From: Clostridia bacterium
GTDB lineage: Bacteria; Bacillota; Clostridia; Monoglobales; Monoglobaceae
Assembly: GCA_017456605.1 (NCBI GenBank)
Contig: JAFTJA010000007.1
Location: forward strand, 1 to 64,000
DNA length: 64,000 nucleotides
Direction of reading: 5' to 3'
Numbering within the stretch: the first letter of the stretch is position 1; the number at the start of each line of letters is the position of its first letter. The translations under genes were made by a program, and so were the position numbers. This document shows, piece by piece, positions 47,694 through 63,737 of the stretch. The notes below the pieces were generated by a model. That model saw only the letters and a program-made list of their open reading frames with translations. It searched no databases and was not told the DNA's origin.

Positions 47694-47728
47694 AGTTATA
47701 TCCCCCCATTTGTTATTTTTTTGCATTA

Positions 47729-47777
47729 GGCTCCCTTGTGTAAAGGGAGCTGTCAGCTCTGCTGACTGAGGGATTGT
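47729..47777 (+). repeat. Double-hairpin inverted repeat, left end (copy B)
   Basis: GGCTCCCTTGTGTAAAGGGA forms a stem (GCTCCCTT / AAGGGAGC), then GTCAGC / GCTGAC, then TGAGGGATTGT. It is inverted relative to copy C at 48124-48172. The DUF559 gene's last codons and stop are read through it on the minus strand. Confidence 0.85.
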
Positions 47778-48121
47778 TTAACCATATCATCTATGTACAT
47801 ACAAACCCCTTCAAAATTCCTAATAATATCAATATTTGATATCCTAACAACCGTTATGCCGTATCCTTTTAAATATTCTGTTCTTTCTTTATCATATTTT
47901 TTACCATTATTTTCATAATGTTGTGATCCATCAAGTTCAATAACCAAATTAGCTTTTGCACAATAAAAATCCGCTATATATTTGCCTAATATCTTTTGTC
48001 TTATAAAACGGATAGGATAATTTTTCAAAAAGTCATACCAAAGATGTCTTTCTTCTTTTGTCATATTCTTTCTCAAACTTTTTGCAAGCGGTAATAATTT
48101 TTTATTGTGCTTTCTTTCCAT
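47753..48121 (-). CDS. DUF559 (Vsr-like, PD-(D/E)XK) endonuclease-domain protein
   Basis: 122 aa. LRKNMTKEERHLWYDFLKN, FIRQKILGKYIADFYC and LVIELDGSQHY match DUF559, related to very-short-patch repair and restriction-like nucleases (catalytic D..E-x-D pattern about residues 49-65). The gene is enclosed by inverted repeats: the GGAGGG at the inner edge of copy C is its ribosome binding site (7 nt from the ATG), and the C-terminal KQSLSQQS plus stop are encoded inside copy B. Likely a mobile cassette. Its target and activity are unknown. Confidence 0.88.
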   Translation of the reverse strand: MERKHNKKLLPLAKSLRKNMTKEERHLWYDFLKNYPIRFIRQKILGKYIADFYCAKANLVIELDGSQHYENNGKKYDKERTEYLKGYGITVVRISNIDIIRNFEGVCMYIDDMVKQSLSQQS

Positions 48122-48123
48122 CT

Positions 48124-48172
48124 ACAATCCCTCCACCGCAAGCGGTCCCCCTCCCTTTACACAAGGGAGGCT
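48124..48172 (-). repeat. Double-hairpin inverted repeat, right end (copy C)
   Basis: Read on the minus strand: AGCCTCCCTTGTGTAAAGGG, a stem CCTCCCTT / AAAGGGAGG, then ACCGC / GCGGT, then GGAGGGATTGT. It is the inverted partner of copy B. Outer ends are flanked by TTA on the left and TAA on the right. Confidence 0.85.
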
Positions 48173-48255
48173 AAGTATTATTTTACCACAATGCAAAATT
48201 TTTCGCAACAACCAATTATTTCAATTTTATGAAAATAACGCCTCATCCGTTCCAC

Positions 48256-48312: not shown

Positions 48313-48579
48313 TTAGTTATAGATTTCGCGTCTGTGTCCAACAGCCAAAACCAGAATTTTGATTTTGTCATCCTCAATTTCCGCAAGCAACCTATAATCC
48401 CCCACGCGATATCGCCATTGACCACTTCTGTCGGCCGTCAAAGCCTTGCCATGCCAGCGGGGATTTTCACAATCTTGAAGATTTTTCCGTACCCAACCCA
48501 AAATCAATGCCGCTGTATGTCGGTCTAATTTTTTCAAATCTTTTAAGGCTGCGGCAGTAAACTCTACTTTGTAACTCAT
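48313..48579 (-). CDS. relE: RelE/ParE-type toxin
   Basis: 88 aa. YKVEFTAAALKDLKKLDRHT start, WRYRVGDYRLLAEIEDDKI (about 54-72) and the terminal VGHRREIYN are typical of RelE-fold mRNA interferases, which cleave mRNA at the ribosome. It overlaps the antitoxin gene by 4 nt (ATGA). The key basic residues of the family (R in WRYRVGDYR, H-R at the end) are present, so it looks intact. Confidence 0.92.
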   Translation of the reverse strand: MSYKVEFTAAALKDLKKLDRHTAALILGWVRKNLQDCENPRWHGKALTADRSGQWRYRVGDYRLLAEIEDDKIKILVLAVGHRREIYN

Positions 48580-48797
48580 TGCAATCCCAATTCCCTTTCT
48601 GCATCATCAAGAGAATAAGTGATGGGATTTGCTTTATATTCCTTCATTGCTTTATCAAACATTTCCAAATCATATTCTGTCTCAATACGTTCCATAACTG
48701 TTTGACGAATAAGGTCAGATACTGAAATCCTGTTAAGCTCTGCATATTTCTTTATTAACAAAGTATCTTCATCATTTAATCTTAAAGAGATTGTCAT
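48576..48797 (-). CDS. relB: RelB/DUF6290-type antitoxin
   Basis: 73 aa. Ribbon-helix-helix N-terminus TISLRLNDEDTLLIKKYAEL, SVSDLIRQTVMERIE, followed by a helical toxin-binding C-terminus (ITYSLDDAERELG). ATG 48797 with GGAAG at 8 nt; the frame is open three codons further up. It probably represses its own operon. Lies between a terminator-bounded S-layer gene and the DUF559 cassette. Confidence 0.88.
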   Translation of the reverse strand: MTISLRLNDEDTLLIKKYAELNRISVSDLIRQTVMERIETEYDLEMFDKAMKEYKANPITYSLDDAERELGLQ

Positions 48798-48945
48798 ATA
48801 AAACACTTCCTTTCCGTATTACATTGTATTACATAATTGTAATTTTGTCAATAGTTTTCGCAAAAATAAGAAATTTATTTAATCAAAACTTTTAATTTTA
48901 CCCAAAATCCCCTTATACGTTTCACAAGTGAAAATAAAAAGGCAC

Positions 48946-63417: not shown

Positions 63418-63520
63418 TGCCCTGTAAAAACTGCACTGCTTACTTGCTACCCATAAATGGGTTATCTTTTCGCGGGCTTCCCATTATATAAACTCTGGTT
63501 ATATAAATGTTTTGCAACAA

Positions 63521-63572
63521 CAATCCTCCCGTCAACCTATGGTTGCCACCCTCCTTTACACAAGGAGGGCTT
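63521..63572 (-). repeat. Double-hairpin repeat (copy D)
   Basis: Minus strand: AAGCCCTCCTTGTGTAAAGG, stem CCCTCCTT / AAGGAGGG, then CAACC / GGTTG and GGAGGATTGT. Same family as copies B and C. Confidence 0.8.
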
Positions 63573-63590
63573 AATCATTCAACTTCCAAG

Positions 63591-63636
63591 GCTCCCTTGT
63601 GTAAAGGGAGCTGTCACAAAGTGACTGAGGGGTTGG
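63591..63636 (+). repeat. Double-hairpin inverted repeat, left end (copy E)
   Basis: GGCTCCCTTGTGTAAAGGGA stem GCTCCCTT / AAGGGAGC, then GTCAC / GTGAC and TGAGGGGTTGG. Oriented like copy B and paired with copy F 48 nt away. Confidence 0.85.
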
Positions 63637-63683
63637 CTTTTTCTGCTTTTACTTTTGAGGATATATTTTCACTTTCACAATTA

Positions 63684-63737
63684 CAATCCCTCCGAGTTTG
63701 CTACGCAAACCCACCTCCCTTTACACAAGGGAGGCTT
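63684..63737 (-). repeat. Double-hairpin inverted repeat, right end (copy F)
   Basis: Minus strand: AGCCTCCCTTGTGTAAAGGG, stem CCTCCCTT / AAAGGGAGG, then GTTTGC / GCAAAC and GGAGGGATTGT. Oriented like copy C. Confidence 0.85.

Follow-up and report, generated by a model that had tools for sequence, protein, structure and literature searches.

A short gene of the DUF559 family, embedded in a clostridial genome between two facing copies of a hairpin repeat, raises the question of whether gene and repeats belong to one unit and, if they do, whether this unit is mobile and which enzyme would move it. The locus was analysed within a stretch of 64,000 nucleotides (the window, to whose forward strand coordinates refer unless another locus is named), within its source genome (1.41 Mb, 85% complete), among clostridial relatives and in other phyla.

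The unit, a candidate autonomous DUF559 element of 443 bp (47729..48171, minus strand), consists of inverted ends and a gene, the start-side end being the right one in forward coordinates. The inverted arms (47726-47749 and 48151-48174; 24 nt, 401 nt apart) are 96% complementary, and each end is composed of an 8-bp outer hairpin with a 5-nt loop, an inner hairpin and then an 8-nt purine-rich strand. At the start side, the outer hairpin (48150..48171, minus) has the order Y-loop-R, CCTCCCTT GTGTA AAGGGAGG, and was delimited by the inverted arms, by folding of single-stranded DNA and by the triplet covariation described below. The inner hairpin (48135..48146, minus; ACCGC-TT-GCGGT on the gene strand) was delimited by folding and by pairing that is conserved across loci, and the putative third strand RH (GGAGGGAT; 48127..48134, minus), the mirror of R, by triplet covariation. 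The GGAGGG within this third strand (48129-48134, minus) is also the Shine-Dalgarno sequence of the YcjD-type DUF559 gene (47753..48121, minus; 122 aa), which starts with the ATG at 48121, ends with a TGA inside the stop-side end and was assigned by Pfam match, conserved residues and a structure model. The stop-side end comprises an outer hairpin (GCTCCCTT GTGTA AAGGGAGC; 47729..47750, plus; inverted arms, pattern scan and folding), an inner hairpin that overlaps the stop codon (GTCAGC-TCT-GCTGAC; 47752..47766, plus; folding) and a putative third strand of its own (TGAGGGAT; 47767..47774, plus; triplet covariation). As single-stranded DNA, both ends fold as two hairpins, with z-scores of -4.0 and -5.4 and no shuffle equalling them, and the outer-hairpin pattern occurs four times in the window with at most three mismatches, as compared with zero occurrences in 100 shuffles. 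The inverted double-hairpin repeats around a single DUF559 gene that an earlier note on this DNA had described were thereby borne out. No open reading frame other than the DUF559 gene was found inside the 443-bp unit. A known RNA family was considered and rejected, there being no Rfam match at the element. Adjoining the start-side end, a ParE-type toxin gene overlaps a DUF6290/ribbon-helix-helix antitoxin-like gene (48313-48806, minus).

The 122-residue product matches Pfam DUF559 with E = 5e-29, and residues E24, D51, D64, H68, D77, R80 and R93 are invariant in 20 DUF559 sequences across phyla, with E62 nearly so. An AlphaFold model of the protein (pLDDT 86) gave its best Foldseek matches with N. 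gonorrhoeae NGO0050 (3hrl; E 1e-6), which is also a relative at the sequence level (E 7e-18), and with 3r3p (E 3e-4), the catalytic domain of the homing endonuclease I-Bth0305I. The DUF559 protein is thus predicted to be a Vsr-like nuclease of the PD-(D/E)XK class and would presumably be catalytically active. YcjD had already been assigned to the PD-(D/E)XK superfamily, as a neighbour of Vsr (PMC1189080). Selection on the DUF559 gene is purifying, with a median dN/dS of 0.063 across 459 pairs. No match to the RAYT transposase domain Y1_Tnp (PF01797) was found in the source genome; a RAYT was therefore rejected as mobiliser, and the enzyme is unrelated to RAYTs, as the earlier note had stated. 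Also a defence system was considered and rejected, as PADLOC matches were to much longer models, with at most 30 bits and an E-value of 9e-8 at best. DUF559-like domains occur in addition in open frames of 1000-1800 residues (e.g., L151-L153, L158 and L159), which represent other subfamilies.

Read in mirror order, the strand that follows the inner hairpin (GGAGGGAT) corresponds to the 3' arm of the outer one (AAGGGAGG). Among 39 distinct combinations of Y, R and RH, the three positions of a triplet change together; the second triplet is T-A*A in 21 and C-G*G in 14, the sixth T-A*A in 28 and C-G*G in 6, the last G-C*T in 17 and C-G*G in 16, and the first is T-A*T in 34 of the 39. The changes were found on differing backgrounds, i.e., in left and right ends and in the CCCTCCTT variant. 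According to established triplex pairing, T-A*A, C-G*G, G-C*T and T-A*T are purine-motif triplets. The mirror identity of RH to R is 5.9 of 8 positions, as compared with a direct identity of 3.3 of 8, and none of 2000 RH shuffles, which do not control for phylogeny, reached the observed sum. The inner hairpins retain their pairing through 48 distinct sequences, with a stem of at least 5 bp in 94% of them versus 11% of shuffles. Because such triplet covariation is the signature of purine-motif intrastrand triplexes, the ends are, by sequence pattern, PIT/BoxC-type elements, that is, intrastrand-triplex motifs in which the triplex itself is predicted to form. Matches to the end numbered 14 in the source genome, versus 0 in a reversed control, and 23 in G034, a genome from a different genus, indicating a dispersed multicopy repeat. 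The triplex nature of the ends had been missed by the earlier note, as had the association across phyla described below.

All three DUF559 genes of the source genome lie between such ends. A search of a genome collection returned 179 DUF559 relatives, 80 of which were kept. Most of these have the two ends directly on either side of the gene, and the unit, about 445 bp long, is found at some 50 clostridial loci. The ribosome binding site in one repeat and the stop codon in the other, which had been pointed out for the window, recurred, with a GGAGGG-type Shine-Dalgarno spacing of 5-8 nt in 52 of 55 clostridial elements and a stop codon inside the stop-side end in 53 of 55. It had also been proposed to compare the flanks of clostridial homologues, and these do keep them: the best ungapped inverted repeat between the gene flanks scored at least 14 at 55 of 83 DUF559 loci, as compared with 2 of 395 control ORFs from the same loci. 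The case that would have refuted the reading of the earlier note, a lack of such flanks in the majority of close homologues, therefore did not arise. A fixed scanner, applied within 200 bp of the gene, identified the PIT motif on at least one side of 80 of 87 clostridial DUF559 genes (control ORFs, 11 of 305) and on both sides of 58 of 87 (0 of 305). The presence of the element is patchy within the genus, and its sites and copy numbers vary; G015, G018, G019, G022 and G023 have a DUF559 gene without this exact end pattern, and a close DUF559 was not detected in some genomes carrying the end pattern, e.g., G035-G037.

Ends were also found paired without a gene. In the window, a gene-less copy of 146 bp (63590..63735) consists of a stop-side end and, facing it across a short AT-rich core, a start-side end. 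A PIT-type end that stands alone (CCCTCCTT / AAGGAGGG / GGGAGGAT; 63520..63570, minus) belongs to a variant family and carries the same triplet variant as locus L052. Gene-less end pairs occur on contigs C5, C6, C7, C11 and C12 of the source genome, and the 119-bp copy on C11 lies about 1 kb from a full copy, with which it has the stop-side end in common and a start-side end that is letter-identical up to the start codon. In G034, an intact 445-bp copy is accompanied by at least six copies of a single form of 255-261 bp; these have lost neither end and share one 3' remnant of the gene, in most cases containing stops. On sequence grounds, the gene-less copies are internal deletions of the DUF559 element, and one deletion form at several sites looks like a non-autonomous mobile derivative. 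Gene-less copies of 130-160 bp with the same ends were observed on IMG/VR viral contigs (L231-L260), and a search of such contigs for DUF559 relatives found none.

With respect to the insertion sites, an A is found at position -1 in 51 of 54 cases and a T at +1 in 46 of 55, so that the flanks of the 55 elements read AAA-element-TTT. This is not a direct repeat, and the TA-type target duplication that the earlier note had read from the outer edges is therefore unsupported; no target duplication could be defined from the flanks and the filled/empty comparisons made. Copies are present at many unrelated loci, with no intron or intein context and no single allelic target, and some lie inside operons (pntAa/pntAb and sufB/sufC). 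Of three Deinococcus species, no two have the DUF559 gene at the same junction of the hpa cluster: the one between hpaE and the oxidoreductase is filled in Deinococcus NW-56 and is a 4-nt overlap in D. proteolyticus, and the D. proteolyticus insertion is at a junction that is unoccupied in NW-56. The comparison of filled and empty sites that had been suggested for defining the ends yielded one pair for the window site, filled in G008 and empty in G005. The malQ genes of G005 and G008 are 89.8% identical, and either is 83% identical to that of the window genome; since the window genome is more distant from G005 and G008 than these two are from one another, the empty allele is most simply read as loss of the element. 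G005 was the only within-genus empty allele of this site, and no clean pre-insertion allele was found. Likewise, flank-gap-flank pattern scans identified no empty sites of the viral-contig MITEs, no contiguous paralogous empty site was found within the source genome, and the second gene-less copy of the window had no orthologous flank pair within the genus. At the pSymB and Azospirillum plasmid sites, all strains found were filled or carried repeats only. Short flank contexts that are specific to a lineage recur around the elements in three lineages, reflecting either target preference or co-duplication (L018-L022 and L210-L216, TGTCGAA..AAAA / ..GCATCTAAAC; L277-L284, TTATGAAAATA / TCATGTGTGGC; L045-L099, GATCGTTAAAA / TTTTTTGTTCATC).

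Outside the Clostridia, the DUF559 gene ycjD of E. coli has its stop codon inside a BoxC-type arm, and in K-12 (L124 5217-5802, fabI-ycjD-sapF) its start adjoins a perfect 17-bp hairpin. The place between fabI and sapF is taken in many E. coli genomes by the eef efflux operon instead of ycjD, an alternation that has been reported before together with conservation of YcjD in phylogroups A, B1 and C (PMC12817139); no clean E. coli empty site for ycjD was found, as the gene alternates with this operon. Among plasmid and phage records, the DUF559 genes retrieved first were likewise located beside or between PIT-type repeats, and inverted repeats at DUF559 genes extend over 56 bp in Deinococcus, 40 bp in Pseudanabaena and 114 bp in S. 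meliloti. With the same scanner and distance, the PIT motif was found by 10 of 15 DUF559 genes outside Clostridia, as compared with 1 of 43 control ORFs. For a held-out set of 11 further loci from other phyla, fetched after the hypothesis had been formed, an inverted repeat or PIT motif was present at 10 of 11 DUF559 genes versus 2 of 62 control ORFs (p = 1e-9, p-values here overstating independence because homologues and loci are related by descent). In a broader sample, PIT-type flanks were found for the high-scoring YcjD-type genes (3 of 3 outside the source genome) and for none of seven members of lower-scoring DUF559 subfamilies, so that the link is to the YcjD-type subfamily. The DUF559/PIT association was thus seen in Firmicutes, Proteobacteria, Cyanobacteria and Deinococcota, with unlike repeat sequences.

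The reading that we favour, with a probability of about two in three, is that the unit is a minimal autonomous mobile element, a YcjD-type DUF559 nuclease gene between inverted hairpin- and triplex-capable ends, and that PIT/BoxC repeats are its offspring. The third strand would fold back onto the outer stem to form a purine-motif triplex, and the nuclease would recognise the folded ends when the strand is single-stranded or extruded by supercoiling. It may then cut at the ends and/or at A/T-rich targets, and host repair would copy or paste the unit. Internally deleted copies with both ends could be mobilised in trans to become gene-less MITE-like repeats, and the PIT/BoxC repeats of bacteria would be the non-autonomous offspring of such elements. 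We infer recognition, cutting and the transposition chemistry, as well as the role of DUF559 rather than another factor as mobiliser. That DUF559 itself moves the repeat family is the best inference, and the data suggest that its gene is the engine spreading BoxC/PIT repeats. From the interpretation in the earlier note, according to which the DUF559 protein recognises the hairpins and moves or maintains the repeats, the unity of gene and repeats, the retained flanks of homologues and the gene-less derivatives stood, but not the TA duplication.

Alternatively, DUF559 may be a repair or defence nuclease captured as a passenger between two copies of a MITE/PIT repeat that is moved by an unrelated transposase. 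This would account for repeat-bearing genomes without a close DUF559 and for the rumen Oscillospiraceae, where the element travels as part of larger units that have inverted ends of ~30 bp and carry further cargo. However, as the same gene family is accompanied by unlike PIT repeats in four phyla, many captures of the same gene would be needed, and the purifying selection on this gene, the lack of another ORF in the unit and the lack of a Y1 transposase in the source genome also render capture unlikely.

A role as freestanding Vsr-like (EDxHD) homing endonuclease, which would cut element-free alleles so that the gene spreads by allelic recombination, with the hairpins as terminators or protective structures and not as recognition ends, appears quite improbable: homing gives no reason for the mirrored triplets at the ends to be conserved, gene-less copies multiply with both ends retained, and copies are found at many unrelated loci, several operon junctions among them. 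It would nevertheless agree with I-Bth0305I as the closest characterised fold, with the recurrence of copies in short lineage-specific target contexts and with the terminator-like form that A/T-rich flanks lend to the outer hairpins. We give very little credence to a benefit for the host, by which YcjD would be part of a domesticated regulatory or repair module acting on replication-blocking triplexes or hairpins; selection would maintain this module at PIT sites, and ordinary recombination alone would relocate it. The low dN/dS of the gene, the conservation of YcjD in the E. coli phylogroups and the reported link of PIT/BoxC loci to genome rearrangement (PMC4666352) are compatible with such a function, but the patchy presence within the genus, the variable sites and copy numbers and the amplified internal-deletion forms are not what it leads one to expect.

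Several components of the favoured mobile element are already known separately, i.e., the BoxC/PIT repeats, which have been described since the 1990s and occur in hundreds of genomes, the fold, and an enzyme gene between its own hairpins in the case of RAYT. PIT/BoxC elements are highly conserved and widespread, occurring in E. coli, Synechocystis, Haemophilus and others, and in the 2015 survey, no gene for mobility was reported in their vicinity (Holder et al., 2015; PMC4666352). The clostridial ends share with them the Y-loop-R stem, the purine third strand behind it, in which R is mirrored, and the many intergenic copies, but have an inner hairpin between R and the third strand and repeatedly enclose a nuclease gene. 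In REP/RAYT (TnpA-REP) REPtrons, too, inverted hairpin ends flank a single small enzyme gene, and other repeats in the genome lack the gene; RAYT, however, is an HUH Y1 transposase, whereas the DUF559 protein has a Vsr-like PD-(D/E)XK-class fold. The latter is shared with the EDxHD/Vsr-like I-Bth0305I and NGO0050 (3r3p, 3hrl), but in contrast to EDxHD homing endonucleases, DUF559 copies are dispersed and have structured inverted ends and deletion derivatives. As with MITEs and their parent insertion sequences, internal-deletion derivatives carry the ends of the coding element; unlike there, only DUF559 and no DDE or known transposase lies between the ends, and these are hairpin/triplex motifs and not plain terminal inverted repeats. 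A search of open-access full text found no link of DUF559 or YcjD to BoxC/PIT repeats, an absence that is no proof.

To our knowledge, a lone Vsr-like nuclease with triplex ends fits no class of transposable element, and for this reason the element would, given its presumed mobility, be categorically new. At slightly better than even odds, we propose a previously unrecognised class, present in four phyla or more, whose lone Vsr-like DUF559 nuclease would recognise triplex/hairpin ends and mobilise itself as well as PIT/BoxC repeats in trans. If true, this would give transposition a further type of enzyme, namely a Vsr-like nuclease of 120 residues that acts on folded, triplex-capable DNA, and suggest a function for DUF559, a large family of unassigned role. 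Linking BoxC/PIT repeats to a conserved nuclease gene also makes their origin testable in E. coli.

Some further arrangements were noted. On inspection by eye, a double hairpin of clostridial style, its outer loop being long, lies immediately upstream of the DUF559 gene at the sole negative held-out locus (Novosphingobium pTHN, L269 ~1890-2000). At about 20 rumen Oscillospiraceae loci (L045-L099), the DUF559 element is located at one end of larger units of 1-1.6 kb, which have imperfect ~30-bp inverted ends (CTAAAGGACAGTTTT / AAAACTGTCCTTTAG; e.g., L058 2027-3530), a multi-hairpin tail and differing passenger genes (peptidase E-like, Nudix); no transposase and no Rfam match was seen in these units. 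In addition, PIT-type ends occur in tandem arrays with a spacing of ~50-115 bp (L075 1154-2111, L091 2644-4230 and L053 424-925), reminiscent of the BIME clusters of REP elements.
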